Source: a virus
Strand: one strand, 5' to 3'
Virus record (IMG/VR): IMGVR_UViG_3300031715_000002
Location: 32,200-96,199 of that record
Length of the DNA: 64,000 nucleotides
The translations under genes and the position numbers were made by a program. The notes beneath the pieces are model-generated. The model did not search any database. It worked only from the letters and a program-made list of their open reading frames with translations, and was not told where the DNA came from. Shown here one piece after another: positions 4,750 to 64,000 of this stretch (positions within the stretch are counted from its first letter, which is position 1; every line of letters starts with the position of its first letter).

Positions 4750-4763
4750 GGATACCCCCAAAC

Positions 4764-4797: not shown

Positions 4798-4802
4798 TTC
4801 CC

Positions 4803-4831: not shown

Positions 4832-4908
4832 GAGAATTGCCAAGCGGTTCCTACACACTCTGGATCAGAGCAAAAGGTGCTGAGAACCGTGAGGCAAATT
4901 TTACTCAT

Positions 4909-7463: not shown

Positions 7464-7742
7464 TTATTTCCCCAACCTGAACATCGCACGCATCCGCATT
7501 GCCCCTTCTGCCTCGGTAATCGGCTTCTCTGCGCATACCCCATGGCTGCAAATCAATCCACGCGGCCCTGTCCCCATCAATCGGCACACCATCGGGCGCA
7601 CTTCGTAAACGGAGCATCTGTGGTCCTTCAACAGACTGCAATCAAGCGTTCCGGACTTATGCGCCATGAACAGGCTTCGGTCGCCTTCCGGCTCATGGCC
7701 GATGAACTCAGAGATGCGCTCCCATTCAACCCGCGTCTTTGC
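7464..7742 (-). pseudogene. YkgJ-family cysteine-cluster protein, 5' truncated
   Basis: The frame LLKDHRCSVYEVRPMVCRLMG matches the C-terminal half of YkgJ-type proteins, whose cysteines bind zinc or an iron-sulfur cluster (here CSVYEVRPMVC). The frame is open upstream through RVEWERISEFIG to the junction with the transposase remnant at about 7742, and the usual N-terminal CxxC part is missing. So an insertion with an adjacent deletion appears to have removed the 5' end. A 67-residue product from ATG 7667 could still be made, but it would be half a domain. Confidence 0.6.
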
Positions 7743-21026: not shown

Positions 21027-21419
21027 GATCTGCGGATTCTTCGGAATCGACACCTCCCCGATCCACTCGAAGCCGCCCGCCTCGAACAGATCCACCACCG
21101 CCCCCCGGAAGTCCCGCCGCCCCATGTACCCGTGCTGATTCTTGTACCGAAGGAGCTGCTGGATGTGAATGCACACGTTCCGCCCCGGCTTCATCACCCG
21201 CAGCAGTTGGTGGATGAAGAACCGCATATGCAGCCCGAACTGCGACCCCCGCATATCCACCCCGTCCGGGTTGTTCCCGATATCCTCCGGCTTCCCCGAG
21301 TACATAAAGAGCGCCCCGAACGGGATCGAACTCACCGTCAGGTCGATACTCTCCGGCTCCAGGTGCCCGAACATCGCCGGAATATTGTCCTCGTTCCAGA
21401 TCTGAGCGTTAATCCCCAC
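21027..21419 (-). pseudogene. DNA methyltransferase 5' fragment cut by the ISL3 element
   Basis: From GTG 21419 (GGAGG six bases upstream, within the end of the sulfurtransferase gene) the frame reads MGINAQIWNEDNIPAMFG, then DLTVSSIPFGALFMYSG in the place of the catalytic (D/N)PPY loop, and FFIHQLLRVMKPGRNVCIHI. This matches a phage N4/N6 methyltransferase subfamily. After SIPKNPQI the reading enters the transposon end and stops at 20997, so the C-terminal half is lost and is not found on the other side. It probably formed an operon with the sulfurtransferase. Confidence 0.75.
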
Positions 21420-22599
21420 AGACATCCTCCAGGAATGGCTGTACCACGCCATCCGCAAACATCGGCTCCAACACTGCATCCCCCGCCGGTTCGGTACCAT
21501 CCCACCCGCGCGGCCACGTATTCGCCTCAGTCAACTCACGAATCCGGGCTTCCTCCTCAGGGTTAATGAGGTCGATCTTCGGCTGCCCGACTTGCTCTGC
21601 TGCGTCGTTAATCTCCCCCTGCACACCCAGCACAGTAGACAACCCGAACTCGCGTGCCTCCATCGTCAACGGCCCGACCCTCTGCTGGTTTTGCGACAGC
21701 GTGCCATCCTTCCGCCGCTCGCCGCCCGCCTTACGGATGCGATGGGCGTGGTTGAAAGTCAGCTCCTCGTAGAGCGGCTTAAGCCGAAGAAGCGGGGCTA
21801 GGTAAGACCATTCCGGCCGCTCTACTACGCCGCGCAATGCCTTGTCTTGACTCGCCAGCGGACAACCGATACATCCGGTCCGTGCGTTGATCTCCACGGC
21901 CTCATCGCCGCCGTAGACGTTCGCCACCATCCGCGTCGGGTATTCGTGCTCCCCGAACATTAGCCAATCCCACACGTGGCATACGCGCCAGTGAAGCAAC
22001 GGAGCCAAGGTATCCGCCACCGCCTCCGGAGTCGCCTCCTGGAACCATCCCTGCCCGCACTCCGCCCCATCCCGCGAGCAACTCATGATAATCCTGCTGT
22101 CGCGCGCCGCAGATTCCCCTAGCCGGACCCCCGTGAGCATCAGGAGCTTCTCGCCGGCGGTTTCCCGGAGTTCCTTGAGCGCGTTCAACATCGGCTCGAT
22201 CTTGATCTGGCTGGTACACCAGCGAAATCGGTTCTTCGGCGGGGGAACCCCGCGGCCGAACATGTACACGAAGTAACGGTCGTCCATCGCCGGTAGAACC
22301 ACCCGCGCGCTAAAGCCCTTGCTCCGCAACTTCTCCATCATCCGCATCGCGGATACCTGGAGCGGTGGTATCTCCATCCGGGTGTCCGCATAAAGGATCG
22401 TCAGCGACTCCGGCCGTGGAATCACGCCACTCTCGATCAGGTGCGCGACAATCGTCACCGTCGCACTGGAGTCTTTCCCTCCGCTGTAAGCGATGGCCCA
22501 ATGCTTGAACCGCGGAGCGTACGCCCTCAGCGACTCCACCGTTAACTCGATGGATTTCGGTAGTGTCAGTCGCTCCGACTCGAAGAGATTTGCGTTCAT
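21409..22599 (-). CDS. DndC/CysH-like sulfurtransferase (PP-loop ATPase family)
   Basis: A 396-residue protein with the PP-loop IAYSGGKDSSA (about 35-46), the nucleotide-binding site of the PAPS-reductase and adenine-nucleotide-hydrolase superfamily. Conserved cysteines follow: FRWCTSQIK (Cys 128), SCSRDGAECGQGW and GCIGCPLASQD, an arrangement like DndC, which uses an iron-sulfur cluster to put sulfur into DNA backbones. CysH-type assimilatory reductases are the alternative. No other Dnd genes are seen, but a DNA methyltransferase fragment follows directly, so DNA modification or protection is a reasonable inference. Confidence 0.8.
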   Translation of the reverse strand: MNANLFESERLTLPKSIELTVESLRAYAPRFKHWAIAYSGGKDSSATVTIVAHLIESGVIPRPESLTILYADTRMEIPPLQVSAMRMMEKLRSKGFSARVVLPAMDDRYFVYMFGRGVPPPKNRFRWCTSQIKIEPMLNALKELRETAGEKLLMLTGVRLGESAARDSRIIMSCSRDGAECGQGWFQEATPEAVADTLAPLLHWRVCHVWDWLMFGEHEYPTRMVANVYGGDEAVEINARTGCIGCPLASQDKALRGVVERPEWSYLAPLLRLKPLYEELTFNHAHRIRKAGGERRKDGTLSQNQQRVGPLTMEAREFGLSTVLGVQGEINDAAEQVGQPKIDLINPEEEARIRELTEANTWPRGWDGTEPAGDAVLEPMFADGVVQPFLEDVCGD

Positions 22600-28789: not shown

Positions 28790-29836
28790 CTACTTCCAGT
28801 TTCTTGGGCACAGCAACTTGCGCGCGCCATGCTTTGTAACTATCTGGCTTTGTGCCGCCAGTTGCTCGAACGTTTGCGCCCACCAGTCGGGATACGTTTG
28901 GTCCGCTACTAGCGCGTATCGCTTCAGTAGCTCAACCCGCCACCCCAACTCCCGCGCTACCTTTTCCCAGTCCACCCCAACGCTATCCGCATCCTTGCGC
29001 CACGTCACCTTGCCCAGGCTGCTATTCAGGCCGTCCGCATCGCCAATCAACTGCTTGACTTCATTGCTGAGCGATTCTTTCTCCTGTTCGGCGCGGTTGA
29101 ACTCGTCGCGCGCCAACTTCAGGCGCATCAGTAGCGCCTCTTCCTCTCCCGTGGCCTGCCGTAGCACTTCCACGTTGCGCGGGAATCGCTGCCTGAGATA
29201 TTCCTTGGCCGTCTCCGTACAGCCGATGGGCGGCGCTACGCGCGCCAGCACGTGCTCACGCCAGAACTTTTCGCACTCTTCCAGCAGCACCGCTTCCAAA
29301 TCGGCATCGAAGTGGATGCGGTAAATACGAAGATCATCAAGCCCGCAGATTGCCGCGGCATCGGACCATGGCAGGCCGGTTGTGGAACAAGCCCACTGCA
29401 ACTGAAGGCTCACACGGTCGGGTACCTTATCGGAGCCAGTCTCGCCCCATTCATAGGCCTGGTCCCAAGACACCGTTTTCGCATCAACCATCCCGAGCGC
29501 TTGGATTCCAGCGGCAGGCACATAAATCGGCGTGGCAGAAGACGCTTCGCTACTGATTACGAAAGCATCGGGGCTTACTACCTGCCATTCTCGGTCGGGA
29601 TGCCGGATGGTTTCATCGAACCAATAGCATTTACACCTACGCTCATCGCCGTACCACGCGACTACGCCACGTTCCAGGTATTTTCCGCGGCGCATTCTGG
29701 CGTTTGGCGGTTGCCGCTTTACTAGCCCCAGCTTATCGGCGTAAACTGAGAACCTGTCGCGGCGCGTATCTAGGCCAACGACGGCACACACATCACTGCC
29801 ACCAATTCCACGTGCGCGTATGCGATTGTCAATCAT
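28790..29836 (-). CDS. YqaJ-type viral recombinase exonuclease
   Basis: A 348-residue protein: IGGSDVCAVVGLD (about 11-23), a GKYLERGVVAWYG helix, SPDAFV, then GMVDAKTVSWDQAYEWG with catalytic acids and VSLQLQWACSTTGLPWSDAAA. This is the lambda-exonuclease-like YqaJ fold (PD-(D/E)xK). It would resect double-strand ends 5' to 3' to feed the annealing protein. The C-terminal third is a coiled coil plus small domain, common in this family. Confidence 0.9.
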   Translation of the reverse strand: MIDNRIRARGIGGSDVCAVVGLDTRRDRFSVYADKLGLVKRQPPNARMRRGKYLERGVVAWYGDERRCKCYWFDETIRHPDREWQVVSPDAFVISSEASSATPIYVPAAGIQALGMVDAKTVSWDQAYEWGETGSDKVPDRVSLQLQWACSTTGLPWSDAAAICGLDDLRIYRIHFDADLEAVLLEECEKFWREHVLARVAPPIGCTETAKEYLRQRFPRNVEVLRQATGEEEALLMRLKLARDEFNRAEQEKESLSNEVKQLIGDADGLNSSLGKVTWRKDADSVGVDWEKVARELGWRVELLKRYALVADQTYPDWWAQTFEQLAAQSQIVTKHGARKLLCPRNWK

Positions 29837-31940: not shown

Positions 31941-31968
31941 ATAACTCGTAGTTATATCTATGAGTTAT
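31941..31968. repeat. 28-bp inverted repeat over the late operon stop codon
   Basis: ATAACTC (31941-31947) and GAGTTAT (31962-31968), extended inward by a G-T mismatch and TAG/CTA, around a TTATAT centre. It overlaps the stop codon (31965-31967) of the bifunctional glycosyltransferase. With the adjacent GC hairpin it may form a two-part terminator, or serve as an operator. Confidence 0.5.
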
Positions 31969-34181
31969 GGCAGCAATTCCTGATAATCCTTGTAAATCTG
32001 CAATCGCGGGTCATCAGGCGCAAGCACATGCCGGTCCTGGTATGGCGTCATTCTCTCCGGCGGCGTGTCCTTCTTGAAGCCCCCGGCGAAGTGCATCACC
32101 CGCAGGAAGTCGCCGTTGACAGTGTAGTCTTTGGGATATCCACCGTGATCCCAACATTCGATTGGCTTAACGTCGCGATCACAGATATTCCAGAAAGCGA
32201 CATTATAACCGGGATGGCGTAGGAGTCTCGCTCTCGGATCGAAGTCCAGCGCGTACCGCAGCCAAGACTGCTCGCTGTAAAGATGCTTCGCAGGGTCGAT
32301 TTGTGGGTAGGCCGCCGTCTGGTTTCCCCACCAGCGGATGAATGGGAGCGCCGCTGGCGTGGCCGCGAAGAAACCGCTGTTGTAGTTGCCCGCAAGGTTT
32401 AGGCACTCCTGCATCCGTGGCCATTTGCCATCATCGGGATACGGGACCATTGTGTGTGGCGTCACCAGCATGGATGCGCCGGCCGCTATTTCGCGCTCCA
32501 CTTCGACAAATGGGCCGTAGGTGTACGTGTCGCCATCGAGGAAAACCGCAATATCGAAGCCGCGCGCTTCCAGTGCGTATTGCATGATGCGCGGGCGCCC
32601 GACGACACCCCAGATTTTCAGGACATCAGAAAGCCCCAAGTCGGAGGGATTGAGGACATGGTCAAAGATCCCGCCATACTCAGACTTTGCTGCGTCAGTT
32701 AGCAGAACTGCGAAATACTTTGGATTACATCGCTGAGCCGATTCGGCTGCCAGCATCGTCTGCGGCAGAAACTCCTTGCTGGAGATGAAGCATAGGCACT
32801 TTCTTACTGATAGCTTCTTGGTATCCGCTGGTGGCGTGTCTTTACGGGACTGAGTTGGAGTGGCCGGCAATGACGGCAGGGAATGTCCGACTTCTGTCAT
32901 GCGCGGATCGGGTACCCAGGCCACTGGCCCAAGAGGGATAGTGGCCCCATTGGTATCACATCCCTCTACATCTAGTTCCCTCCATTTTTCGGCCCAATCG
33001 GCGATGGGGATTTTCTTGATGACTTCCGCGAAATGCCTCTCACCGTCTTCAAGGTACTTCGGATTCTTTGGCTCGTAGCACAGGGCTTCCTGCCAGTGCT
33101 TCGTCGATCCTTCCTTATCTCCCAACCACCACAGGCTGGCGTACAGCATCTCGTGAGGCACTGCGCCGTAGTGCCTCAGGTTGTTCATGTAGTAGCCCAC
33201 GAGCGGCACCGTCAAACTGGCCGCCGCATAGGCCGCGCACTGCCCAGCGTGCCCCGGCTTGGTGTAGTAGTACTCTGCGAGTCGGATCAGCGCTTCCCGC
33301 CGCGTGGGGTCCTTTGCGAATGCGCGATGCCAGCACTCCAAGGCTTGCTCATCGTCCCCGAGCTTCTGGCAGCACTCCCCGATGTAGATGAGCGATTGCG
33401 CTTGCTCAATTGGCCACGCCGGCATTTCGATATGCCGCTGAAACTGGCAGATTGCCGAACGATAGCGCCCACTGAACATCAATTCTCGCGCAAGGTAATG
33501 CGTGTTGCGGTCGTTGTTCGGATTGAGTCTGAGGTCCACCATTAGTCCTGGCAGGTCGCTTGCGTGCCCCTGGTGCTGCGGGTGGTGCTCCATCGAAAGC
33601 ACCGATTCCGGCGCGCGCTTAATCTTCGCGGCATTGCCAACAGGATGCTCGTGGATAAAGTTCACCCACCTGACTTTGCGTCGGTCGTAAAAGCGTTCCC
33701 GGTCAAACTGGATCAGCGGATTGCCGTACTCATCGCTGCTGTAGACGTAGTTGCACAGGATTTGCTCAGTATCTGGCTGTGCAATCATTTGCTCCAGCGC
33801 GTCAATGTCGAAGTGCGGCAACGTTTCATCGCAATCCGGCATAAAGATCCAATTGTTCGATGCCTGCTGTCCTGCAAAGTTCCGCGCTGCGCTGTAATCG
33901 AAGAACCGATCACCAGCCTTGATTGCTGGCGGTTCACCTTTCACAATAAAGCGATTGTTCAGGTCGTCGGCCTCATCTAGCAGCACGGTGTGCATAAACT
34001 GCGGACCACCAGACAAGACATTAATGCAAGATTCTTCCGCCAGTTTCACAGTGCCATCTGTTGACCCAGTGTCCACGAGCACCACTTCGCCGCCGCGCTT
34101 GCGAAATTCCTTCAAGCACTCTAGCAGGCGCGGCAGCGTGGCCGCTTCGTTCTTGGCGATCATCACAACGGAGAAGTTCAT
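31965..34181 (-). CDS. Bifunctional glycosyltransferase (GT2 - TPR - GT8-like)
   Basis: A protein of 738 residues from ATG 34181, in an ATGA overlap with the upstream gene. Domain 1 (about 1-200): SVVMIAKNEAATL, DTGSTDGT and the metal motif PDCDE of GT2. Middle (about 215-400): helical repeats of the tetratricopeptide type (ALIYIGECCQKLGDDEQALECWHRAF). Domain 2 (about 460-730): CLCFISSKEFLPQT, the DxD motif FLDGDTYTY and the C-terminal YNVAFWNI and VMHFAGG as in GT8-like enzymes. It would add two sugars in sequence, to a virion protein, the host surface, or modified DNA. Last gene of the late operon. Confidence 0.8.
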   Translation of the reverse strand: MNFSVVMIAKNEAATLPRLLECLKEFRKRGGEVVLVDTGSTDGTVKLAEESCINVLSGGPQFMHTVLLDEADDLNNRFIVKGEPPAIKAGDRFFDYSAARNFAGQQASNNWIFMPDCDETLPHFDIDALEQMIAQPDTEQILCNYVYSSDEYGNPLIQFDRERFYDRRKVRWVNFIHEHPVGNAAKIKRAPESVLSMEHHPQHQGHASDLPGLMVDLRLNPNNDRNTHYLARELMFSGRYRSAICQFQRHIEMPAWPIEQAQSLIYIGECCQKLGDDEQALECWHRAFAKDPTRREALIRLAEYYYTKPGHAGQCAAYAAASLTVPLVGYYMNNLRHYGAVPHEMLYASLWWLGDKEGSTKHWQEALCYEPKNPKYLEDGERHFAEVIKKIPIADWAEKWRELDVEGCDTNGATIPLGPVAWVPDPRMTEVGHSLPSLPATPTQSRKDTPPADTKKLSVRKCLCFISSKEFLPQTMLAAESAQRCNPKYFAVLLTDAAKSEYGGIFDHVLNPSDLGLSDVLKIWGVVGRPRIMQYALEARGFDIAVFLDGDTYTYGPFVEVEREIAAGASMLVTPHTMVPYPDDGKWPRMQECLNLAGNYNSGFFAATPAALPFIRWWGNQTAAYPQIDPAKHLYSEQSWLRYALDFDPRARLLRHPGYNVAFWNICDRDVKPIECWDHGGYPKDYTVNGDFLRVMHFAGGFKKDTPPERMTPYQDRHVLAPDDPRLQIYKDYQELLP

Positions 34182-34599
34182 CTGGTAAGCCTCACAGTAA
34201 AGGCCATCCGATTCCATCGCTCGGCGAATCTTGTCTTTGCCATTTCAACCATCTGCTCAAACGTATATTCACCTTCTGCGAAGTACGTACTGTTGCATCC
34301 GCCTCTTCGGTCCACAGAACGGTCCCAGAAGGACAGTGCCGTCCATCCCCCAAGATGGTGGAGCAAAGCGTCGCCCTCGACGCATCCGTACCCCATGGAC
34401 CAGTAAGACCGATTGAAGCGCGCACTTTCCCATCATCGCTCCAAGACCAGTAGATACTTGGGGCGAGTTGTGCTATGTGATGGCTTTTATGACCGCCTTG
34501 TAATCTACATTGAAAACGTCCTTCAGGACGATAACGTGAGAACTTGGCGTCGGCTGGTGTGAGGGCGGCGCAGCGTGCGTTATCCTGTTCTTGAGCCAT
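34178..34599 (-). pseudogene. Conserved phage protein with one frameshift
   Basis: The start ATG 34599 has a strong GGAGGGAG site and reads MAQEQDNARCAALTPADAKF, CRLQGGHKSHH and SIYWSWSDDG to about 34430. A second frame then carries WESARFNRSYWSMGYG, GGWTALSFWDRSVDRRGGCNSTYF and ends in an ATGA overlap with the glycosyltransferase start. The second part has the look of a conserved phage protein, and the overlap shows that its frame is the real end. One missing base near 34430 would join the parts. Programmed shift, dead gene or sequence error are all possible. Confidence 0.55.

Positions 34600-36919: not shown

Positions 36920-36923
<4 letters not shown>
34698..36923 (-). CDS. Right-handed beta-helix tail fibre/spike with membrane anchor
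   Basis: A 741-residue protein. After a hydrophobic N-terminal segment (about 10-27, [16 protein letters not shown]) comes [20 protein letters not shown] (about 43-62), the signature start of pectate-lyase-type beta-helix proteins used as phage tailspikes and depolymerases. The long body is rich in S, T, G and N with repeated strand turns. Two internal stretches repeat ([15 protein letters not shown]-like and [11 protein letters not shown]; a similar [10 protein letters not shown] near 200). It probably binds or cleaves host surface sugars. The hydrophobic N-terminus is unusual for a virion fibre. Confidence 0.75.
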
Positions 36924-39409
<2,486 letters not shown>

Positions 39410-39413
39410 AAGT

Positions 39414-42400
39414 TTAGATGTAGTTGTACAGAATTCCGTTGGCAAAATAGAACTTGTGCCCAGACAGGGAGATGATACCCGTGTAGCTAGCAATAAACCC
39501 ACCAGGAGAATTGAATGTTTGCACATCCCTCACATACAGGGTGTCAATTGAGGCCGGCCCTGGAACTCGAAGCAATAGGCTCACTCCAGGGATGCCAGAG
39601 TCCGTACCGTTGATGGTTACCGTTCCGGCATTCCCGGTGAGGCTCATCGTGCCACCAGTCGCAACGATGTTCGCCCCACTGAACACAGCAATCGAAAACC
39701 CGGTGGCCGATAGCGACATCGTGCCTACGCTGTTTGTAATCTGAATGCCCGTGGTCGCATTGATGTTGATGTACGGGTGTGTAGTGTCTCCGTCCACCGA
39801 ATAGATGCGCAACTGGCCCGGAGTGATGGAAACAGAGGAACCACCGGAACCGGAGGAAATGAGTGTTCCCGATGCCGAAATTGAGGTGTACGGCTGACTG
39901 AAATTGGGAGTACCTGAACCTGTGGTTGCCGAAGATAGGAGCACGCCAGTCGCATTGATAAACGTTGCCGCGCCTGTGCTACTACCAATGCCACCATAGA
40001 TCAACATTCCTGTATTCTGGATTTGAACGAACGGATAATTCGTGAGTCCAGCAGTTCCAGGTCCATTGGCCGCGCCGAACAGCGATAATCCGCTGTTGGT
40101 GAGCACCATCACCGGATTGCCGCTGCCTTCGCTCAACACTACCGCGCCAGTGAATACCTGGCTGATTCCAGCGCTGTTCAGATTGTTGCCGTTGACGGCA
40201 TTGAGCGCAATGGCTGCATTCGTGACAGCACCAGCAGCAAGTTTGGTTGCATCTACCGATGCCGCCGCCAAATACGTGCTCGTGACGCCCGCCACCGCAA
40301 GCGTGAGTTGCCCGGAGGTATTGACTGAGATCGGTCCGCCCACCTTGACTTGCTGGACTAGCAGCACATTTTCCACGTACCAGTTCAGGCCGCTCGAAGC
40401 ATCGCCAGATGCCACGAACTGGACACGGATGTTTGCTGCTTTCGGTAGCGCTACTGTCGCTGTCAGAATGTTGGTGTTGAATGCAGGCAGCGTGCCAGCA
40501 ACTCCGACTAGTGGATACGTTGCCGTGCCGCCGCCTACAGCCGTGACGAGCAAGTTGGCTGTGAACGTCCCAGGCTTTCCAGCATCGCACGCAAGGTCGA
40601 ATTCCAGCGTGAAGGACTGCGAGGTCTTCAGCGAATGCGGGACTTGCTCTTGAATCGTGGCGTTATCGACAATCTCAAGCTGACCGTTGCTGTTGACAGA
40701 GACGTTGCTAGGATTCGATGTGACGTTCCAGCCAATCAGTCCAGGGTTGCTTCCCGTGGTAGGAGTAAACGGGTTAGCAACCATGTTGGCATTGCTGGTT
40801 TCGGTGTAGCCTTGCCCAACGTGGAGAAAGAAAGTCTGCGTCTGAAGAATAGTGTTTGGATCGCTTCCATCCCACGGGGTAGCGCCATTCGTGCTATTTC
40901 TATTCAGCCCGTACCACTCGAATAGAATCCATTGGATTGGCAGATTCGCGCTCGACATTGCGTTTGGCGATGGGTAGTTGATGTACAACCCAGGCCCAAT
41001 GCCTTGCGTGCTCCACGATTGCGTAGCCCCGTTGTTTACGCACTGCACGCCGAGTTGATAGCTCGATGGATTCGAGACTCCGCCAGGATCACCTTGCGTG
41101 AATGTGGTCCCATCGTAACTCCCCCACTGAAGGACTGACTGGTAATACCAGCAATTAGGATCTCCATTGCCCGGTGGGGTGTAGTTCACCAGCACAGCAG
41201 CATAGGGATTACCAAGAGAGTTGATGCCTCCGTAGATGTTGTCCGGAGTAGGCGTCAACCCTTGTCCATTTGTGACGGAGAATGAGATCCCGCCAGCAAT
41301 CGGAGGCTCAATTACTTCTGAAAACGGCGAGCTCAGTTCGACCACGGCAGGCGCAACCAACGCCGTGATATCGGCGAGCGTGAGCGCGGTTGGCCCATCT
41401 CCGCCCCATGAACCTTGAACGATGGCGCACTGGAAATTGACCGCTGGGCCATTCCACAGCGGAAAGTCAATCGGTGAGGATGTGCCGGTAAATGGAAACC
41501 ACCCTACCCAATAGAAGGCAGGCGCGGTGCCAGAACTGTAACGGAAGAAAAACCAGATGGTCGCTACATAAGGTATGCCAGCATGATTTGGCGTTGGTGT
41601 AACCGTGATGACCGCATGGGTAGATTGATCCGTGAGGTCGATGTAGCGCGCTGTCTCGGTTGCCGTTACAGCAGTGATCTTGATAGAGTCAACTGTGAAT
41701 GGGCTAGAGGCTACCGCCGCAGCCGTCACACCGTCGATGCCCTGTGAGATTCCCTCAACAGTCCAGTTCGGTTGATCTGTTGTCGGCAGCGGGTAAATCG
41801 GCTGAAGCGTGTAATTAACTGTCGTCCCAGTGATGCTTTGGATACCGTTCAGTACGATGCCGCCCTGGCCGGCCGGAGCGGTGGATGATGTCCCTGGAGG
41901 GAATGCCGAGACGATGATGGAGTCGAGCAAACTGTACGATGGGTCGGTGGTCGGCAGCGTGATTACGCCGCTGATTTGCACACCTGAATCGTTGCCCACC
42001 AGCACGTAGGTGAGCACTGCGGTAATTGAGACGATAGCCGGTGGTGTAGTGGTCAGACCCCCAGAGGTAGCAAGGTCGCCACCGGATAAACCGCCAACAA
42101 TCTCCGCGCCACCGCCGCCGCCAATCAAGTCCTGCCAAAAGTCCAGCCACGAACCGATCTGCGCTACGTCAATGACCGTTACGGAGTAAGAGTAATGGCC
42201 GCTACCAGGCATCGGCAGGCCGGCCTTGATGGGCACTAAGTCCGCAGAGACTTCCTGAACAACGTAGCTCTTCGGCGTCCCGATTGAGCCTACCAATGCT
42301 CCGACGCCTTCCGGATTGGAGTTATCCAGAGCGATACTCAAGTATTGCCCTGGCTTGAGTCCTGCAATGAACGTGCTGAAAGTGAACAGGACAGGGATCG

Positions 42401-44141
42401 GCAAGTAGGCCGCCAACGCCTGCTGCGCTTCGGCTAAGCCCGTTACGTTGCTCGCAATACCAGTGTTCGTTTTTAGTTGCTGGTACTTTCCTGTGCCGCC
42501 TTCAATGACAGCGCGGGCAGTGACAGCAGACGTGTCCTCAACCACAATCGAATCGCCGCCAAGGCGCGTGTATTGAACCTGAACGTCGCGTGAAAGGACC
42601 GGAGTATTGCTCGGTACCGATGCCAGCGCAATCTGCGTTTGCCCAGGAGTGTAGTAAAGGTTAGCGCTAGCCGACTGCCCATTGATGGCAACCGAAAGCG
42701 GTGCGGTATTGTTTACTCCTCCGCCAGATGTCGAAGGATGCAGCCACGAGAACGAAGATGATGTGGACGCAAGCGCCGCTGAATAGGCGCCGGCCGGTTT
42801 GTTGACTACTCGGATTTGCCCGCCACTCACGACTGAAGCATTAACCAGCGGGTTTTCCCATGTTGGCAAGCTGAATGTGACACCAGCCAATTCCACGCCA
42901 GCCCGCGTTTGCATGGAGTTCAGCGCATCGACAAAGTTCTGTGCCGTCGCCGCGGCATTCGCCCCGATGAGCACTTGGCCCCATTGCGTGTTATCGAGAA
43001 CGGTCTTCAGTGTATAGACGCCACCCTGCTGGATTCCAAGATCCTGCCATACCAATTCGAAGTCGCTGGTTGTGCCGCCAGTGTCGTTCCACGATGGCAT
43101 CGTTGGCCCGGAAAAGTTGCTGGTGGGAGAACTGACGTGCGTCACCTGTTGCGTGTGGCCGGCAGGGTCAATGATGATTTGGCCCACCTGATATGGGCTG
43201 TTCGGTTGCCATGTGTATGGCGAACTGCTGCCGGTTGGGTAGGTGATAGTAATCGTGTCGCCATCCGTTCCAGCGCCAGTGAATGTGCCAGTCTGCTGAC
43301 TTTGTGAACCTTGCGTCGTCCACGCAAAGGTTACTTGACTCGGTGGCCGCAGAAGCTGGAAATAGGCTGGCAAGGCACCGTATGATGATGACAGGAACAA
43401 TTCCGAGCTTTGGGCAAACGCACTCGGGTTGATCTGCAAAATCTGACGGTTGCGGTAATCCTGTCGGTTTTGCTCCCACTCCATTGAGAGCCATTCAAGA
43501 TCAGCGCTCGCAAGAGTGAACGGGGAAGGCGTCGTATTTGGCAGGTTAAAGTAGAGGCTTGGCAGCGGGCTTGTGGTGATGTCAATGCCGCAGATGAAAC
43601 CGCTCAGCGCCGCGAATTGCTTGATGACGGACCACAGGGTAGGCCAGTTGGGAAAGGTTACCGATGAAGGAATCGCGCTAACGTTCGTCGGGTCAATGGA
43701 GCCGAGCTGAATCAGCGGGCTACCTGCCGTCATCAGCTTGTTGAACAAATCGGTAACGATGAATCCGCATGACTGCCCGGAGTATGCAATCGTTGGTGGG
43801 ATGCGGATGGTATCGAGCGTCGATTCCAGCGACACGCATGAAAGATGGAAAATCTGCTCGCCGCCAGCACTCTCCCACGCCAGCTTCACGCGGTCGATAG
43901 TGCCCACGAACACGGGCACGTCACCAGAAACAGTCTGATCGTAAAGGAACACCTCGCAGCCGATGGTCGGCTTGTAGGTATCCCCCTGATGCACGCGCAA
44001 GGCGATATCCGCCGTGCCGCGCTGCAAGGATGTCAGGTTAAACGAGTGCTTCTGGCCTTCACTGAAGTCCAGACGGCCTGTTTGGTCGGTGGGGCCTAAG
44101 GGGGAAGGCTCGTTGATGATGAGCCATGCGGTGGTGGACAT
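39414..44141 (-). CDS. Tail hub/tip protein (large central tail protein)
   Basis: A 1575-residue protein. The N-terminal region (about 1-200) has the make-up of a siphovirus tail hub: GTADIALRVHQGDTYKPTIGCEVFLYD, FVGTIDRVKLAWE and WSVIKQFAALSGFICGID, a pattern seen in distal tail and Tal-like proteins. The middle is beta-sandwich or fibronectin-like, and the C-terminal 350 residues are glycine-, serine- and threonine-rich repeats (GTLISSGSGGSSVSI, TGIQITNSVGTMSLS), like fibre shafts. It follows the tape measure, as in other siphoviruses. No clear ribosome site is seen at ATG 44141. Confidence 0.75.
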   Translation of the reverse strand: MSTTAWLIINEPSPLGPTDQTGRLDFSEGQKHSFNLTSLQRGTADIALRVHQGDTYKPTIGCEVFLYDQTVSGDVPVFVGTIDRVKLAWESAGGEQIFHLSCVSLESTLDTIRIPPTIAYSGQSCGFIVTDLFNKLMTAGSPLIQLGSIDPTNVSAIPSSVTFPNWPTLWSVIKQFAALSGFICGIDITTSPLPSLYFNLPNTTPSPFTLASADLEWLSMEWEQNRQDYRNRQILQINPSAFAQSSELFLSSSYGALPAYFQLLRPPSQVTFAWTTQGSQSQQTGTFTGAGTDGDTITITYPTGSSSPYTWQPNSPYQVGQIIIDPAGHTQQVTHVSSPTSNFSGPTMPSWNDTGGTTSDFELVWQDLGIQQGGVYTLKTVLDNTQWGQVLIGANAAATAQNFVDALNSMQTRAGVELAGVTFSLPTWENPLVNASVVSGGQIRVVNKPAGAYSAALASTSSSFSWLHPSTSGGGVNNTAPLSVAINGQSASANLYYTPGQTQIALASVPSNTPVLSRDVQVQYTRLGGDSIVVEDTSAVTARAVIEGGTGKYQQLKTNTGIASNVTGLAEAQQALAAYLPIPVLFTFSTFIAGLKPGQYLSIALDNSNPEGVGALVGSIGTPKSYVVQEVSADLVPIKAGLPMPGSGHYSYSVTVIDVAQIGSWLDFWQDLIGGGGGAEIVGGLSGGDLATSGGLTTTPPAIVSITAVLTYVLVGNDSGVQISGVITLPTTDPSYSLLDSIIVSAFPPGTSSTAPAGQGGIVLNGIQSITGTTVNYTLQPIYPLPTTDQPNWTVEGISQGIDGVTAAAVASSPFTVDSIKITAVTATETARYIDLTDQSTHAVITVTPTPNHAGIPYVATIWFFFRYSSGTAPAFYWVGWFPFTGTSSPIDFPLWNGPAVNFQCAIVQGSWGGDGPTALTLADITALVAPAVVELSSPFSEVIEPPIAGGISFSVTNGQGLTPTPDNIYGGINSLGNPYAAVLVNYTPPGNGDPNCWYYQSVLQWGSYDGTTFTQGDPGGVSNPSSYQLGVQCVNNGATQSWSTQGIGPGLYINYPSPNAMSSANLPIQWILFEWYGLNRNSTNGATPWDGSDPNTILQTQTFFLHVGQGYTETSNANMVANPFTPTTGSNPGLIGWNVTSNPSNVSVNSNGQLEIVDNATIQEQVPHSLKTSQSFTLEFDLACDAGKPGTFTANLLVTAVGGGTATYPLVGVAGTLPAFNTNILTATVALPKAANIRVQFVASGDASSGLNWYVENVLLVQQVKVGGPISVNTSGQLTLAVAGVTSTYLAAASVDATKLAAGAVTNAAIALNAVNGNNLNSAGISQVFTGAVVLSEGSGNPVMVLTNSGLSLFGAANGPGTAGLTNYPFVQIQNTGMLIYGGIGSSTGAATFINATGVLLSSATTGSGTPNFSQPYTSISASGTLISSGSGGSSVSITPGQLRIYSVDGDTTHPYININATTGIQITNSVGTMSLSATGFSIAVFSGANIVATGGTMSLTGNAGTVTINGTDSGIPGVSLLLRVPGPASIDTLYVRDVQTFNSPGGFIASYTGIISLSGHKFYFANGILYNYI

Positions 44142-44151
44142 TTTTTATGGC

Positions 44152-44179
44152 TTGACAACTATTGGCTATCATGATAGCC
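44152..44179 (+). promoter_or_regulatory. TTGACA promoter element with a perfect 16-bp palindrome
   Basis: A consensus -35 TTGACA lies at 44152-44157. GGCTATCATGATAGCC (44164-44179) is its own reverse complement over all 16 bases and contains the start codon ATG 44171 of the next gene. A poor -10 (TAGCCG) lies 17 bases after the -35. A protein dimer on this palindrome would block the promoter and the start of the gene, so autoregulation by the first gene product is a natural hypothesis. Confidence 0.6.
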
Positions 44180-44359
44180 GTGGCCGAGACGATACGCGAA
44201 TGCGGCGAAGCACCGAGCTGGACGGTATACGCTGCGCTGGTTGGCCGCGTCACGCTGGAAGGTTACCAGTCGATTCTGCGCAACCTGAAAGGCGCGGGGT
44301 TGATTACCGAGGACGCCAGCCATTTGCTGCGCTGGATCGGCCCGAAACTGGCTGCATAA
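44171..44359 (+). CDS. Small winged-helix-like regulator
   Basis: A 62-residue protein from ATG 44171, within the palindrome. IRECGEAPSWTVYAALVGRVTLEGYQSILRNLKGAGLITED followed by LLRWIGPK resembles a small winged helix: helices, a recognition-like helix (YQSILRNLKGAGLI) and a short wing. It is the first gene of a plus-strand cassette that interrupts the minus-strand tail region. Repressor of its own promoter is the simplest role. Confidence 0.55.
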   Translation: MIAVAETIRECGEAPSWTVYAALVGRVTLEGYQSILRNLKGAGLITEDASHLLRWIGPKLAA

Positions 44360-44374
44360 CAAGGAGAGCCTCAA

Positions 44375-44776
44375 ATGATCTGGACTCGCGAACCGAACTC
44401 CGTCAACGACAAGCCGAGCTACCTCGCTGGTACCTCGAAAGCCGACTACCGAATCGTTCCCGTATCGGGCGGCTTCCGGCTGCACTACAAAGTCATCGAC
44501 AGCAACACTTGGGCCTGTGGCGAATGGCACACCAAATTGAAGTGGACCAAAGAAATGGCCGCATCGCTGGATAGCCAACTTGGGCCGGCCATCCCTTCTA
44601 CTGTTTGCGCGGAGTTTCGTGAATTTCTCCGCGAAACCGGATCGGCATGCCAGATGCCGAAAACTCCAGAACAAGTCTATGAACTGTGGCGCGAATATAC
44701 TCGCGTATGCTCAAACTACGATCAAAGTCCGGTTAAATCTGAATTCCTTGAATGGTACAAGGATCAACTCCGCTAA
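44375..44776 (+). CDS. Cassette protein of unknown function
   Basis: A 133-residue protein with a good AAGGAG site seven bases before ATG 44375. The N-terminal half is beta-rich (ADYRIVPVSGGFRLHYKVIDSNTWACGEW), the C-terminal half helical (PEQVYELWREYTRVCSNYD). No known domain. Accessory genes in such isolated cassettes often alter host defence or metabolism, but nothing here proves that. Confidence 0.65.
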   Translation: MIWTREPNSVNDKPSYLAGTSKADYRIVPVSGGFRLHYKVIDSNTWACGEWHTKLKWTKEMAASLDSQLGPAIPSTVCAEFREFLRETGSACQMPKTPEQVYELWREYTRVCSNYDQSPVKSEFLEWYKDQLR

Positions 44777-44844
44777 ACCCCTCCCTGATGATGGCCCGGC
44801 TGGTTCACCGGGCCGAAACCCGATAGGTCGGAGGAAACCAAAAG

Positions 44845-45075
44845 ATGATAAGCACCAGATACGGAAATGAAATCACGCCGGTAGAGGCTGTTTATGACCA
44901 TGAGACCGGTAATTTTGTGGCTTGCTTTGCCACTCGCAAAATCGACAACGCCAAGCGCTTCTACACGGTTGGCCAGATCCGGGCGACCGACGGTGTAGCG
45001 GAGATCCTTTCCGCGCTAGAGTCTTTGCCGAAACGCGCTGACAACGAGGTCTTGGACTGCGAGGCGTGGCGTTAA
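44845..45075 (+). CDS. Cassette protein of unknown function
   Basis: A 76-residue protein with a GGAGGAAA site before ATG 44845. Beta-rich start (TPVEAVYDHETGNFVACFATRKI) and a helical end (VAEILSALESLPKRADNEVLDCEAW). No family recognised. The stop codon is immediately followed by the next ATG. Confidence 0.6.
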   Translation: MISTRYGNEITPVEAVYDHETGNFVACFATRKIDNAKRFYTVGQIRATDGVAEILSALESLPKRADNEVLDCEAWR

Positions 45076-45274
45076 ATGCTCACTCCCTCCCGCGCCCGTC
45101 ACATCCAATCCCTACGCAAAACCAAACGGGGGGGGCCACAATGGTGGTCGCCCCCGCACGGAACCTGAACATGCCACGCACGCACGCTACCGACAGGGAT
45201 GCCGGTGTCGGAAGTGCTTGGACTTCATGTCAGCCTACGAGCGAAACCGCCGCGCTACCTCGAATTCGGGCTAA
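45076..45274 (+). CDS. Small zinc-finger protein split at an 8-G tract
   Basis: From ATG 45076 the frame reads MLTPSRARHIQSLRKTKRGG, then meets eight G in a row (45128-45135) and soon stops. One step forward the other frame continues NGGRPRTEPEHATHARYRQG and CRCRKCLDFMSAYERNRRAT to TAA 45274. The CRCRKC pattern with nearby His is a common phage zinc finger (YRxGCRCxxC). A +1 shift, or a different G count, joins the two parts. This looks like a switchable tract, a programmed shift, or a homopolymer error. Its end overlaps the convergent tape measure gene. Confidence 0.5.
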
Positions 45275-48200
45275 ACTGATTCCCTGTAGACTTCAGGTAG
45301 TACGGCAGTTTCTTCGCAATCGTCCGCGCGAACACGTCAGGATCGGTTACCCCGTGGGCATGGACGTGGATTTCCCCAACCTGATAGCTTCCGCTGCCAC
45401 CTCCGCCCGCTTGCATGGCGCGGTAGCCTGATGCTTCGTCTTTGTTGAGGATCTTTTCGCCAGCGTGGATCACAGCCATCCCAGTGGACAGCACATCAGC
45501 GCCAGAAGCGGCCAATGGGATTGCTGGCGCAACCTTCAGTAGTCCTCCGAGTATTCCGCCGCCAAGAGACGATGCGCTTTCTGCTGCCCCCGCTGCCGTG
45601 ATTGCCGCAATAATCGCCGATGTGGCTGTCGTAATTTCAGTTCCGATTCCGGTCACGATAGCCGTTGAGCTTGTTGTAATTGCAGAGGTCAATGTAGCGG
45701 TTTGCGTTGCGATAGCCGTAGTGACAGCCGTGCCTCCAGCAGAGGTTCCAGCGAATCCAGCCGCCCCTGCTGCCGGCGAAAGCGCCGCTGAGAAAGCGCC
45801 GCTCGACTGCGGCAAAGACTTCAGCGCATCTAGCGTACCGCTACTGGCCTGCCCACCCGGCAGCAGCCCCACAATAAGCGAACGCAGGCGAGAGAATACC
45901 GTACTCGCTACCAACCGCGTGGCCTCCGATTCGATGGACTTGAAGACTTGCCGCATGTCACGGTCGAAGTTCTTGCCTGCCGTGGCGGCATTCGCAAGGC
46001 CAGCCCCAATCTTGTCAAAGGCATCGTTGAAGGTTTTCTGCGCATCCACGGCGAATGCGCCTAACCCTTTGCTCGCATCCTCTTGCGCCTTCATCTGAGT
46101 TTGGATGAGCGCCAACTGGGCGATGTACCCAGACGCATCTTGCCCACGCTGGAGTGCAAGTTTGATCTCTAATTCCAACTGCTTTTCAAGCCCTGCATTG
46201 ATTTCAGCAATAGGCGCGTTAATCGCGCGAAGCCGGTCGATAGCCTCAGCCGTTTCCGCAATCTGAGTAGTGAGCGCCTTATCGCTCTCCACGCCCAACA
46301 CTTTGTAGGCTTCCGCGTCTTCCTTTACTGCGTCCTTAGCGCCGCCGGTCAACCGCTTGTCCTGAAGCGATTGCAGTTGATTCTCAAGCGCCTGTCGCTT
46401 GGATGCGTAGTTGGTGTCGGCTGTGTACTGATTGTCCAGCAATGCGATTTCGCGAGCGATGGCCGCGCGCTCTATCGCTTCCTCTTGAGCGTCCAATTGT
46501 CGGTCAACGGCGAGTTTTTGAAATGCCGTGATCTGATGGAGTGAGGCTTCCTCTTCAGCCGCCTTGCGCTGCGATTCGAGAACCCTAACGCTATGCTGTT
46601 GCGCGCCTTTAATGGCCTCCTCATCGGCCTTAGTGCGATCCTCTTCTAGTTTAACGTTCAGTTCGCGGATGTGGTCTGAAATCTCGCGCTCGTAGGACAA
46701 CTCTTTATTGAGGGACTCAACATGATCCTTGACAGTCTGCTCAAAGGTTTTACGCTTTTCTTCAGATACCTTGATGGCGGCTTTAACATCCTCGGTAGCG
46801 AGCTTATCCTTGGCAGCCTGCAACTGCGTCCCGAGGGACGCCACTGCCTCATCGTTGCCGGCCTGCCGCTCCAAGGCAATCTTCTTAGCGATGCCATCGG
46901 CAACAATGTCGTACTCCTGTTTATTGAATGCCTGGAGTTGCGCGAGTTGCTGCGCTTGCGTTAGCCCGCGTTCTTTGGCGTCTTCCTCATACAAAAGCCT
47001 TCTGATTTCCAATTGCGTCTTGGCCAGCGCTTCTTCTTGCTCAAAAGCCGCTTTCTGCGCTGCTACCGGTTCGGCAATCTTTATTTGTGGGACATGCTCA
47101 GGCTTGGAGATTACCTCCGCAGCCTTTTCGTGTGCTGCGATTAGCCCCTGGATTTCCTTCAGCGCATCCGCATCCAGTTTTCTGAGATTCTCCAACTCTA
47201 CGGCTGCTAACCCGTAGTTGTGGGTCATCACATCCGCCGCTGCCTGCCCAAGCCCCTTAATTTCCTGAACGAAAGTACGGAGTGAACGTACTCCGATCTC
47301 GAATGTAAAGGCTACTTCTGTAACCCATTTCGCTACTGCTGTAAGCGCTGGAGCAAGCGCCTCACCTACAGAATTGAGGGCCAAAGTCCATGCATTCTGC
47401 ATCCGTATGAGACTACCGGATGTCAACTCAGCAGCCTTTTCTGCCGAACCTGAGAACTTGTCCATGGCCTCAATTAGGTCGCCTACACGGGTTGCCTCGG
47501 TAAGTCTCTTAAAGTCCTTCGATACGGCCTCTACCGAAACCCCCATCACCTTGGCGAGGTCTTCGCTATTGATACCGAGTTGGCGCAATTGACGCGCGCC
47601 AGCCATCCCGCTAAAGGCGATATTCTCAAGAGAATTGGCTACTTGCTGGAAACTGAATGGCAACACCGCCGATGCATCGGCTAGAGCGTGAATGGCTTCT
47701 GTCGTCTGTCGGGAACTGAATCCGAACGCCGCCATCTTCTGCGATGCTTCCACCAGAGAAGTGAATGGCACCGCCAAGTCCATCGAGGTTTTCTTCAACT
47801 CATCAATAGTCGCCGCCGCTTCGCTTGCACTGCCGCGCATTTGCGCAATGCCGAACTGGGCACGTTCGGTTGCAGCATATACGTTGATGGATTCAGAAAT
47901 AAAACTCTTCAGGGCAGCAACGCTTAATGTGATCCCCGTGAACTCCAGAACACTATTGAGTAGTCCACGCACCTGTCCAATCGTTAAGTTGGCTGATCTA
48001 GATGTTTGGAGAAGGGCTGTCTGTAATTGCTGCGTCGAAGTCGCCGCCGCTTGGGCTGCTTGCGGTATCGGTGCCAGTGCTGCAGTTACGTTCGCTATTG
48101 GAGTCGCAGCACTTGTGGCCGTTTGAGCGGTAGCAGCAAGAGATGGTGCGATTGTCCCGATGGATTGCGCCGCTTGAGAGGTTGTGGCCGATGCAGTATT

Positions 48201-48416
48201 CATGGCCGCCCCAAGCGCGGCCATGGCCTGAGTAGTGGTAAGTCCTTGGTTTGTCAGGGCCTTAATGATTTCCTCTAGATTGTCAATATCTGGAGAGAGG
48301 ACAGCCGCAGCCTTTCCCATCTCGTCCAAATGCTTTGTGATGCTGGACATCTGCGGGGCAGCATCCGCAAAGTCCACCCTCATCCGGACGATCAAATCAC
48401 CTAATGATTCCGCCAA
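45255..48416 (-). CDS. Tail tape measure protein
   Basis: A 1053-residue protein with the usual features of a siphovirus tape measure: an N-terminal helix and A/T/Q-rich low-complexity stretch (about 70-150), a TMP core (IRGSASEAAATIDELKK, FGFSSRQTTEAIHALADASAV, ENIAFSGMAGARQLRQLGI, PALTAVAKWVTEVAF), long coiled coils (about 440-850), and a glycine-rich C-terminus with hydrophobic segments (SLGGGILGGLLKVAPAIPLAASG). Length sets tail length; about 1050 residues fits a tail of roughly 150 nm by the usual rule of thumb. Confidence 0.9.
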   Translation of the reverse strand: MAESLGDLIVRMRVDFADAAPQMSSITKHLDEMGKAAAVLSPDIDNLEEIIKALTNQGLTTTQAMAALGAAMNTASATTSQAAQSIGTIAPSLAATAQTATSAATPIANVTAALAPIPQAAQAAATSTQQLQTALLQTSRSANLTIGQVRGLLNSVLEFTGITLSVAALKSFISESINVYAATERAQFGIAQMRGSASEAAATIDELKKTSMDLAVPFTSLVEASQKMAAFGFSSRQTTEAIHALADASAVLPFSFQQVANSLENIAFSGMAGARQLRQLGINSEDLAKVMGVSVEAVSKDFKRLTEATRVGDLIEAMDKFSGSAEKAAELTSGSLIRMQNAWTLALNSVGEALAPALTAVAKWVTEVAFTFEIGVRSLRTFVQEIKGLGQAAADVMTHNYGLAAVELENLRKLDADALKEIQGLIAAHEKAAEVISKPEHVPQIKIAEPVAAQKAAFEQEEALAKTQLEIRRLLYEEDAKERGLTQAQQLAQLQAFNKQEYDIVADGIAKKIALERQAGNDEAVASLGTQLQAAKDKLATEDVKAAIKVSEEKRKTFEQTVKDHVESLNKELSYEREISDHIRELNVKLEEDRTKADEEAIKGAQQHSVRVLESQRKAAEEEASLHQITAFQKLAVDRQLDAQEEAIERAAIAREIALLDNQYTADTNYASKRQALENQLQSLQDKRLTGGAKDAVKEDAEAYKVLGVESDKALTTQIAETAEAIDRLRAINAPIAEINAGLEKQLELEIKLALQRGQDASGYIAQLALIQTQMKAQEDASKGLGAFAVDAQKTFNDAFDKIGAGLANAATAGKNFDRDMRQVFKSIESEATRLVASTVFSRLRSLIVGLLPGGQASSGTLDALKSLPQSSGAFSAALSPAAGAAGFAGTSAGGTAVTTAIATQTATLTSAITTSSTAIVTGIGTEITTATSAIIAAITAAGAAESASSLGGGILGGLLKVAPAIPLAASGADVLSTGMAVIHAGEKILNKDEASGYRAMQAGGGGSGSYQVGEIHVHAHGVTDPDVFARTIAKKLPYYLKSTGNQFSPNSR

Positions 48417-59294: not shown

Positions 59295-59501
59295 TTATGT
59301 CGCCTCCGTCTCGTTCACTCCATCCCAGTACAAGCGAAACGATTGATATACCTTCTCCCAGTCATCCTCGTGGACTTTAATAGTCCACCCAACAATGTTG
59401 CGGACCTCTTTCTGGAGTGGAAACAGGCAAGAGATTTGGTCAATGCGCATAATGATAGGCTCGGACGTCTCCCTGAATCGGAACTCCACTAAGTATCTCA
59501 T
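59295..59501 (-). CDS. Small late hypothetical protein
   Basis: A 68-residue protein with MRYLVEFRFRETSEPIIMRIDQISCLFPLQKEVRN and a C-terminal DWEKVYQSFRLYWDG. It abuts the adaptor gene and overlaps the Xre-type gene by four bases. No family recognised. Confidence 0.5.
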   Translation of the reverse strand: MRYLVEFRFRETSEPIIMRIDQISCLFPLQKEVRNIVGWTIKVHEDDWEKVYQSFRLYWDGVNETEAT

Positions 59502-59716
59502 GAGTCATGCCCCGGGAAGACGCTCAACATCGTCAGTATAGCCTTTTCGAATACTGGGAGCGGTTTGGATTCGCCCCGCTCCCAGCGCGCAATGGTGTTT
59601 CCGGTGGTGTCGATCTTTCGCGCCAATTGCTCTTGCGTGAGGCCCAGCCGCTCACGCTCCCTTTTCACTTGCGACGGGAAGCGGCTCTCCAGCGGCTTCT
59701 TCTTTGGCTTCAACAT
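59498..59716 (-). CDS. Xre/Cro-type HTH regulator
   Basis: A 72-residue protein: VKRERERLGLTQEQLARKIDTTGNTIARWERGESKP (about 17-52) is a canonical Cro/CI helix-turn-helix. It lies inside the head gene block, overlapping the C-terminal codons of the 341-residue gene by 65 bases and the small gene after it by four. It may repress early genes late in infection. There is no C-terminal oligomer domain. Confidence 0.85.
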   Translation of the reverse strand: MLKPKKKPLESRFPSQVKRERERLGLTQEQLARKIDTTGNTIARWERGESKPLPVFEKAILTMLSVFPGHDS

Positions 59717-61783: not shown

Positions 61784-62788
61784 CTAATGGGCTGATGCAA
61801 AGAAAACTCCAAGCTCCTTTCCTGTCAACCCAAAGGCGTACGCCTGCTCGCACTCGACGTAATCGCCTGCGATGACTTCCCACCGGTACTTCTTGATCCG
61901 CATCCCGGCTGCGGTCGCGCCCTCCAACCCTTGCCAGTTGAAGGTGTATCCACCGCTGACCACACGCAGCCCCGGAGAGGGCGCGGCGTACGTCAACAGC
62001 GCATTGTTGCCCGCGATGTAGGCGAAGGTATCCGGCGTGGTATCGCTGTTCGGAACGTTGTTCTCCGCGCTGCTGGTTTGAATCGCGCGGGCGACCACAA
62101 CCTCATCCACTTCGAACACTTGCGCCAAGTCCGACTCCTTCACTGTCACGATGCCGGGGCCGGTCTGTCCATACTTCAGACGGTCGGTGATCTCTGCGTT
62201 GGTTTTGAGGTCATTGTAGACCTGCGCGCCAAGCACGAGTTTGTTCGGCAGGTAGCCCGTTGCCTGTTCAATGACGATGGAGGCGTTCAGGATGTCTTCG
62301 ATTGGGGTGGATCCGGCTTGGCTCCACTTCTGGAACTGCCCGGCTGACGGAGTTCCGGTAACGCCGGTGAGGTCTTCGCCCCATACGCCGGTCTTGAAGA
62401 AACTGCTGCACCAATTCACATCGCGGTTGATGAGGGCCTGTTGCGTGACGTAGAACGTCGCGTCCGCATCGGGGTTGAGGCCCTGGTCGCTGTTCGCGCG
62501 GACCTGATCGGGAATCGGCTCCTTAATCGCATAGACTTCGCAATTATAGCTGGCGGTTGCCAGTTTGTAGCCGCCGCCAGCCGCTTCCGCGCCGGGCGCG
62601 CGCAACTGCATGGAGTTGCGGTACATATCGCCGCGATTGAAGATGTAATACAAGTCCGACTTGAACGTCACCGGCATCGGCGGGAAAACGCGACCGGCCA
62701 CGAACTTGTTAAGCTGTTGCTGGTACATGATCGTCAAGTTCGTCAAAGGACGATTGACGTGTACCATTTGTAATGTGGGGGTTGGCAT
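61784..62788 (-). CDS. Major capsid protein
   Basis: A 334-residue protein with a strong AGGAGG site. VNRPLTNLTIMYQQQLNKFVAGRVFPPMPVTFKSDLYYIFNRGD is the N-terminal arm of HK97-fold capsid proteins that keep the encapsulin-like FxxxxxxPVxxQSDxYxxF pattern, and the core has IEDILNASIVIEQATGYLPNKLVLGAQVYNDLK (spine helix and following strands) and the A-domain end GYTFNWQG. It builds the icosahedral head. The 100 bases before it hold the ribosome site and weak stem-loop GCGCA/TGCGC. Confidence 0.9.
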   Translation of the reverse strand: MPTPTLQMVHVNRPLTNLTIMYQQQLNKFVAGRVFPPMPVTFKSDLYYIFNRGDMYRNSMQLRAPGAEAAGGGYKLATASYNCEVYAIKEPIPDQVRANSDQGLNPDADATFYVTQQALINRDVNWCSSFFKTGVWGEDLTGVTGTPSAGQFQKWSQAGSTPIEDILNASIVIEQATGYLPNKLVLGAQVYNDLKTNAEITDRLKYGQTGPGIVTVKESDLAQVFEVDEVVVARAIQTSSAENNVPNSDTTPDTFAYIAGNNALLTYAAPSPGLRVVSGGYTFNWQGLEGATAAGMRIKKYRWEVIAGDYVECEQAYAFGLTGKELGVFFASAH

Positions 62789-62888
62789 GGATTTGCCTCC
62801 TGATTTGTGAAAGCTGAGAGAGAGGGGTTAAAGAAACTGAGAAGAGTTAAGCCTGGGAAGGTTCGGCGCAATACCTCTGCGCTCAGAA

Positions 62889-63266
62889 CTAGCTACCCGG
62901 CTGGAAAACGATTTCGGTCATGGAGCCAGCGGCGCCGGCCGCCAAGGCCCATCCGAGCGTGGAAGCCCCCGAAGTTGAGGGAACGGCCGCGCCGGTCGAA
63001 TCGCACATCACTGCTTCGCCAGCATTGACAGTGCCGTTGCACATGATTTTCGTGATATCGCCGGGCGAGCAGCAGGCGCCCGGCTCCCCAACGTTCGGGG
63101 TGTCCTGAATCACGCTGATGGCGAGTTGCCCGGAGCCGCACTGAACGAGTGCGCCAGTGCTGTCCAGCTTCACGAAGGTGTACTGCCCTGTCGTGTAATT
63201 GGTATCGGTTTGGAAGTTATGGTTTGCCGGAATGGACTTCAAACCGCGAATAAGATCATAAGCCAT
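62889..63266 (-). CDS. Capsid decoration protein (DUF2190 family)
   Basis: A 125-residue protein with the DUF2190 pattern: YTTGQYTFVKLDSTGALVQC, PGDITKIMCNGTVNAGEAVMCDSTGAAVPS and LGWALAAGAAGSMTEIVFQPG. The family binds outside the capsid (gpD-like) and stabilises it. Strong GGAGA site before its ATG 63266. Directly upstream of the capsid gene, as expected. Confidence 0.85.
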   Translation of the reverse strand: MAYDLIRGLKSIPANHNFQTDTNYTTGQYTFVKLDSTGALVQCGSGQLAISVIQDTPNVGEPGACCSPGDITKIMCNGTVNAGEAVMCDSTGAAVPSTSGASTLGWALAAGAAGSMTEIVFQPGS

Positions 63267-63391
63267 TTTGGTTTCTCCTTAATTGCGTGGCTTGCTTCTG
63301 AATTGGAATGGAGCCTCCCGCGGCCTGCGTGAGCCGGGGTGTCGGAGGAAACACTTTGGTAAGCGCTGTGACGTTGGGAGGCAGAGAGTGA

Positions 63392-63874
63392 CTACTGGCG
63401 AGTGCCAACCCTTTGCGCGTATTGATGGTCGTACTCGGCGAACAACTGCGGATTCTCCTTCATTAGTGTGAACGTGGCCTTACCAACATCGCAGTTGTCG
63501 CGCTTGGCGATCTTCTCGACTTCAGCGTTGAAGACGCGCTCCATCGGAATGACGCCATTGCCTTGCCCGCTCTTGCCCACTTCGCCGAATTCGCCGGCCA
63601 GCGCCTTGTCTGCGCTCTTCATCGCATCCAGCAGTTCGGTGTAGTCCTTCGACTGCTCCCCGAACGCATCGGCCATCTTCATCAGACGGATGCCCTTCTC
63701 TTCTGGGGAGCCGGGGGTGTGCGGCAGTTCGGCTTCGGCAACCTTGCTGAACTTGACGATGCGCTCCTGCTTGCGAATTGCAGACAGTTCTGCCTCCGCC
63801 TTGGCCAGTCGGTCCTCATTCTTGGCGATACGGGCGGCTTCTTCTGCATCGCGCTTCTGGGCCTTGCGCTTCAT
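63392..63874 (-). CDS. Scaffold-like protein, probably cut or truncated at the window edge
   Basis: A protein of 160 residues from ATG 63874, helical and charged, KRKAQKRDAEEAARIAKNEDRLAKAEAELSAIRKQER with a C-terminal DYTELLDAMKSADKAL... QLFAEYDHQYAQ: the look of an internal scaffold protein or the C-terminal scaffold part of a head protease. The frame remains coding-like (acidic and lysine-rich) upstream to a TAG at 63995-63997, so the upstream gene may be broken or use another start. Position just before the decoration and capsid genes fits. Confidence 0.55.
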   Translation of the reverse strand: MKRKAQKRDAEEAARIAKNEDRLAKAEAELSAIRKQERIVKFSKVAEAELPHTPGSPEEKGIRLMKMADAFGEQSKDYTELLDAMKSADKALAGEFGEVGKSGQGNGVIPMERVFNAEVEKIAKRDNCDVGKATFTLMKENPQLFAEYDHQYAQRVGTRQ

Positions 63875-64000
63875 CTCTTCCTCGTCCTTGTCATCCTCAT
63901 CCGGTTCGTCATCGGCTCCCGGCTTGTCGGGCTTGTCGCTGCCGCTCTTCTTGAGTTTCGCCGCCTTCTCCGCCTTGGCCAGCAGAACCAGTTTCTAACT

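Follow-up and report, generated by a model that had tools for sequence, protein, structure and literature searches.

Why should a short block of plus-strand reading frames lie within a tail region that is otherwise carried by the minus strand? The question arises in the window considered here, the last 64 kb (64,000 nucleotides) of the 96,199-base IMG/VR record IMGVR_UViG_3300031715_000002, which comes from an environmental bacterial virus. The minus strand carries nearly all the recognisable genes of the window, including these:

630-1928, minus strand: terminase
28790-29836, minus strand: RecE-like exonuclease
36920-39133, minus strand: tail fibre
61784-62788, minus strand: major head protein (phrog_1005)

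The head protein is about 44% identical to those of the best-matching GenBank phages. Genes for the portal and the prohead protease are found towards the end of the record opposite the head protein. Since head genes are found at both ends, all on the minus strand (61784-64000, with the head protein, and L002:1-8237, with the protease, a Mu-F-like protein, and the portal), the record may represent a near-complete genome that is permuted and was opened within the head module. Adjoining the portal gene, outside the window (L002:2205-5327; record G000 2205-5327), is the gene for a 1040-aa protein that joins histidine-phosphatase, 2H/LigT-type phosphoesterase, and XkdF-like prohead protease domains, an unusual fusion.

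The window holds auxiliary genes as well, on the minus strand, encoding a PAPS reductase-like protein (21409-22599; phrog_12882, E=4.8e-161), a glycosyltransferase (31965-34217; phrog_13126), and a DUF5131 protein (12058-13008). Two matches to ISL3-family transposases lie on opposite strands, one covering the helix-turn-helix (HTH) and roughly half the DDE domain (7726-8400, minus) and the other almost the whole DDE domain (20098-21024, plus). A further plus-strand block, at 4837-6565, opens with a gene whose 475-aa product belongs to phrog_2319 (E=9e-74), a group of unknown function; two small coding-like ORFs come after it.

The block at issue, called here the cassette, lies between the minus-strand ORFs 39414-44141 and 45255-48416, as an earlier, sequence-only reading of this DNA had noted. 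The features of the locus are:

39414-44141, minus strand: large tail protein (the "hub" of the sequence-only reading), downstream neighbour of the cassette in the late direction
44162 or 44171 to 44359, plus strand: gene 1, 65 aa from TTG 44162 or 62 aa from ATG 44171
44375-44776, plus strand: p133, 133 aa, coding score 7.4, Shine-Dalgarno match of 6 bases
44845-45075, plus strand: p76, 76 aa, coding score 9.9, Shine-Dalgarno match of 5 bases
45076-45274, plus strand: ORF4 region, reading frame broken
45255-48416, minus strand: tape measure protein (phrog_991, E=7.4e-7; TMP_3 and TMP_2 matches that miss the Pfam cut-off; related proteins in G001 and G004)

The tape measure gene is upstream of the cassette in the late direction, and its last codons overlap the cassette's end. 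Its product has no match among GenBank phages, and the large tail protein has no family match and no relatives in IMG/VR or phages. No RNA families were found.

Four genes had been counted in the cassette. Three of them stand as coding-like plus-strand ORFs (gene 1, p133, and p76); the fourth has no intact ORF. Under a codon model built from 20 of the window's genes, gene 1 scores 8.7, and spurious ORFs score as high as gene 1, p133, and p76 in 2, 3, and 1 of 104 cases, respectively. Shine-Dalgarno matches of 5 bases, the length found before p76, are reached by 2.9% of random sites; no such site was found for gene 1. The earlier view that the three products other than gene 1's belong to no known family is borne out by Pfam, NCBIfam, PHROGs, and PADLOC, which cover neither gene 1 nor the other ORFs, apart from a weak match of the ORF4 tail to phrog_23251.

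Morons take no part in virion assembly or lysis and are usually expressed independently, from a promoter of their own and often with a terminator (PMC2629481). The cassette is rather likely to be of this type, an accessory block of about 1.1 kb acquired by a tailed phage where the tape-measure gene meets the following tail gene. It would then comprise an acidic, minimal winged-helix protein, two ORFans, and the broken remains of an ORF associated with zinc knuckles and HNH endonucleases. How well do its parts agree with such an origin?

Searches with p133 and p76 gave nothing significant in IMG/VR, GenBank phages, or plasmids, nor, in the case of p133, in GTDB genomes, by single-protein scans that use exact short peptides and so can miss distant relatives. 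To judge from these scans, both are ORFans in the collections searched, so that codon statistics and ribosome-binding sites are what supports their reality. In L028 a stretch resembles p76 (E=0.014), but it runs on the strand opposite a larger ORF and was dismissed as a chance match. For p133, an AlphaFold2 model made with no alignment is not reliable (pLDDT 43).

The ORF4 region is broken. An ORF beginning at 45076 stops at 45168, the frame ending at 45274 has no ATG, GTG, or TTG start, and codon usage is non-coding in all frames. Between the two parts is a run of eight G's (45128-45135), the only run of at least 7 G or C in the window. The run may reflect a sequencing error, a frameshift that has become fixed, or a tract of variable length. 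The second frame gives HATHARYRQGCRCRKC and ends in a zinc-knuckle-like tail, which weakly matches the C-termini of phage HNH endonucleases (phrog_23251, E=0.0013). Like the endonucleases of phrog_23251 and phrog_4234, it has an HxTxxxYxxGCRCxxC-like motif at its C-terminus; unlike them, it lacks an intact frame, and no HNH catalytic core was found in an intact frame of ORF4, the knuckle-like match being confined to the broken one. An ORF4-like stretch in L003 (E=0.06) was inspected and judged unrelated.

Whether related phages carry the cassette at the same spot can be seen in two IMG/VR records, G001 and G004, both partial, which are the only ones found by scanning IMG/VR with a tape-measure profile and whose head proteins are 60-65% identical. 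The cassette is absent after the tape measure in both. The next tail gene of G001 overlaps the tape-measure stop by one base, and in G004 the two are about 0.2 kb apart, with no 50-aa ORF in between. No winged-helix gene was found elsewhere in these two partial records. The moron layout proposed earlier is supported in part, by the position between two tail genes and the absence from two kin; self-regulation and expression from a lysogen are not supported. The gene that follows the tape measure in the kin is weakly similar to the hub over residues 536-674 only and is otherwise largely unrelated. Since the neighbouring gene has been exchanged too, a module swap is inseparable from a clean insertion. 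The tape measure itself ends in FSPNSR, which overlaps the end of the cassette and has no counterpart in the kin, and this tail hints that the original stop may have been replaced.

Gene 1 had been said to look like a winged-helix regulator, and a winged-helix fold is indeed what AlphaFold2 predicts (pLDDT 91, from 11 sequences), with elements in the order H1-S1-H2-H3-S2-wing-S3. The predicted fold is like the winged-helix domains of MarR, ROK repressors, and E2F/DP (Foldseek TM-scores of about 0.65-0.77 over the query), at E-values all greater than 0.001 and with cullin-type winged helices matching equally well. Unlike small winged-helix DNA-binding proteins, gene 1 is acidic, its family seems to lack a conserved basic recognition helix, and it has no significant sequence match in PDB. 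All 12 family members are acidic (core pI 4.5-6.3), and the net charge of the recognition helix ranges among them from -3 to +1, the latter being the value in gene 1.

The relatives of gene 1 come from 11 phage records, one in GenBank and 10 in IMG/VR (found with a two-sequence profile); there are none in GTDB genomes, by a one-pattern scan, and none in plasmids. The family has in common the motifs P-S-G-x-L-Y-A and H-L-L-x-W, and the matches of its other members to known families are weak and mutually inconsistent. With the fold as predicted, it is an uncatalogued family of phage winged-helix proteins. None of the 11 records shares this phage's head protein. Most of the relatives seem to be located among early or DNA-metabolism genes, an impression gained from the raw surrounding ORFs. 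The closest of them, L022:4977-5474, has a cysteine-rich, zinc-ribbon-like extension at its C-terminus.

Perhaps the cassette is a recombined piece of another phage's early region that is now decaying: gene 1 would be cut short at the N-terminus, and the whole, with its broken ORF4, would retain little function or none. The alignment of gene 1 with L022 starts at TTG 44162, ahead of ATG 44171, and the aligned relatives have 4-12 N-terminal residues more than gene 1. There is no room for these: a stop codon lies at 44153, and on the other strand the hub gene begins only 20 bases from the TTG. The late start without a ribosome-binding site, the close hub gene, and the state of ORF4 all speak for decay. 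However, gene 1, p133, and p76 are still open and coding-like in their codon usage. Also, the differences between gene 1 and L022, by codon position, number 21/10/36, and this third-position excess is the pattern of a protein apparently under selection, though it reflects both lineages. Decay is on the whole an unlikely account of the cassette.

Self-regulation had been claimed as well. In this account, a palindrome spans the promoter and start codon of the winged-helix gene, and the protein binds there and so represses the downstream genes. The 16-bp palindrome, GGCTATCATGATAGCC at 44164-44179, is exact. Simulated sequence with the same dinucleotides, however, contains 1.1 perfect 16-bp palindromes per 64 kb, with at least one in 57% of simulated windows, so about one is expected here by chance. 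When only the 85 bases about the start codon are considered, the palindrome beats 60 of 60 shuffles. Being rare near a start codon but expected in a window of this size, the palindrome is suggestive in its placement, not in its mere existence. TTGACA, the proposed -35, is present at 44152-44157 but has no matching -10 (its best partner is TAGCCG), and the claim of a promoter built on it is not confirmed. A better, though moderate, candidate is the following:

44144-44172, plus strand: best local promoter-like pair, TTTATG-17-TATCAT, by consensus match (rank 21st of 127,940 positions, by a matrix of approximate hexamer frequencies; sigma-70 rules may not fit the host)

The -10-like TATCAT of this pair is contained in the palindrome, and this, together with a winged-helix fold that has DNA-binding proteins among its Foldseek neighbours, favours self-regulation. 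But the pair would start RNA near 44180, behind ATG 44171, and so cannot serve a product begun there. Moreover, since the alignment with L022 begins at TTG 44162, the palindrome falls in codons homologous to those for helix 1 in the family. At the gene starts of the 11 relatives there is no inverted repeat comparable to it. The acidity of the family, which often extends to the recognition helix, argues in the same direction. The longer DNA pattern of promoter and palindrome was not found in IMG/VR, nor in a second copy in the 96-kb record. No terminator-like site was found at the 3' end of the cassette, and the hairpin between p133 and p76 is ordinary for its composition. Autoregulation of the modelled protein through the palindrome is possible; a self-regulated operon in the full sense is distinctly improbable. 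Very improbable, too, is a scheme in which a shortened member of a new winged-helix family binds the palindrome over the -10 and its own start and controls two ORFan effectors, while ORF4 is switched by changes in the length of the eight-G run.

Expression from a lysogen, the other part of the earlier proposal, is unsupported, as no tyrosine integrase or serine resolvase was found in the 96-kb record, which may be incomplete. Cro/CI-like HTH matches are present in the record. One of these, to HTH_3, lies among head-tail genes (59498-59716, minus strand; record 91760-91867, E=1.3e-11).

One more possibility, suggested by the general pattern of a small HTH gene with small ORFans next to it at a moron-type site, is a counter-defence operon (e.g., of anti-CRISPR type) with its own regulator. 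In anti-CRISPR operons with an aca regulator, an HTH gene of a known aca family accompanies the acr genes; the HTH gene is usually last, and here it is first. There is no family match of any kind; PADLOC, which covers defence and not counter-defence proteins, gave none for the cassette products. Furthermore, neither p133 nor p76 accompanies any winged-helix relative in the loci examined. Such a role is extremely doubtful.

To return to the moron-type cassette, it has in its favour the plus-strand coding signal, the absence from kin, the distribution of the winged-helix family, the Shine-Dalgarno sites of p133 and p76, and the broken ORF4. It has against it that the kin are two and partial, that a module swap may have occurred, that there is no convincing promoter and no 3' terminator, and that two of the products are ORFans. 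The ORFs, the predicted fold, the family, the position, and the absence from two kin are what the analysis shows; acquisition route, expression, timing, and function are inferred. The cassette would have plus-strand transcription of its own, separate from the late tail transcripts of the minus strand. Those transcripts would cross it antisense and so would tend to shut it off late. The target of the winged-helix protein may be DNA or a protein partner.

The nearest known parallel is the ant moron, or immunity I region, of P22-like phages, a regulator-bearing block within a late operon, some of whose genes are degraded (PMC2629481). Like it, the cassette is a small block inside a morphogenetic cluster, variable or absent in relatives, with a regulator-like gene and unknown genes, some of them degraded. 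Unlike it, the cassette has neither an antirepressor nor a known repressor family, and it has been compared with two partial kin only. Regulator-bearing blocks in late operons are thus already known. The general picture would be unchanged even if the moron reading is right. In that case, the junction of the tape measure with the tail gene that follows would be one more insertion site of the moron type, and a family of small, acidic winged-helix proteins of phages, as yet uncatalogued, would be indicated. Also, p133 and p76 would be simple candidates for functional screens.
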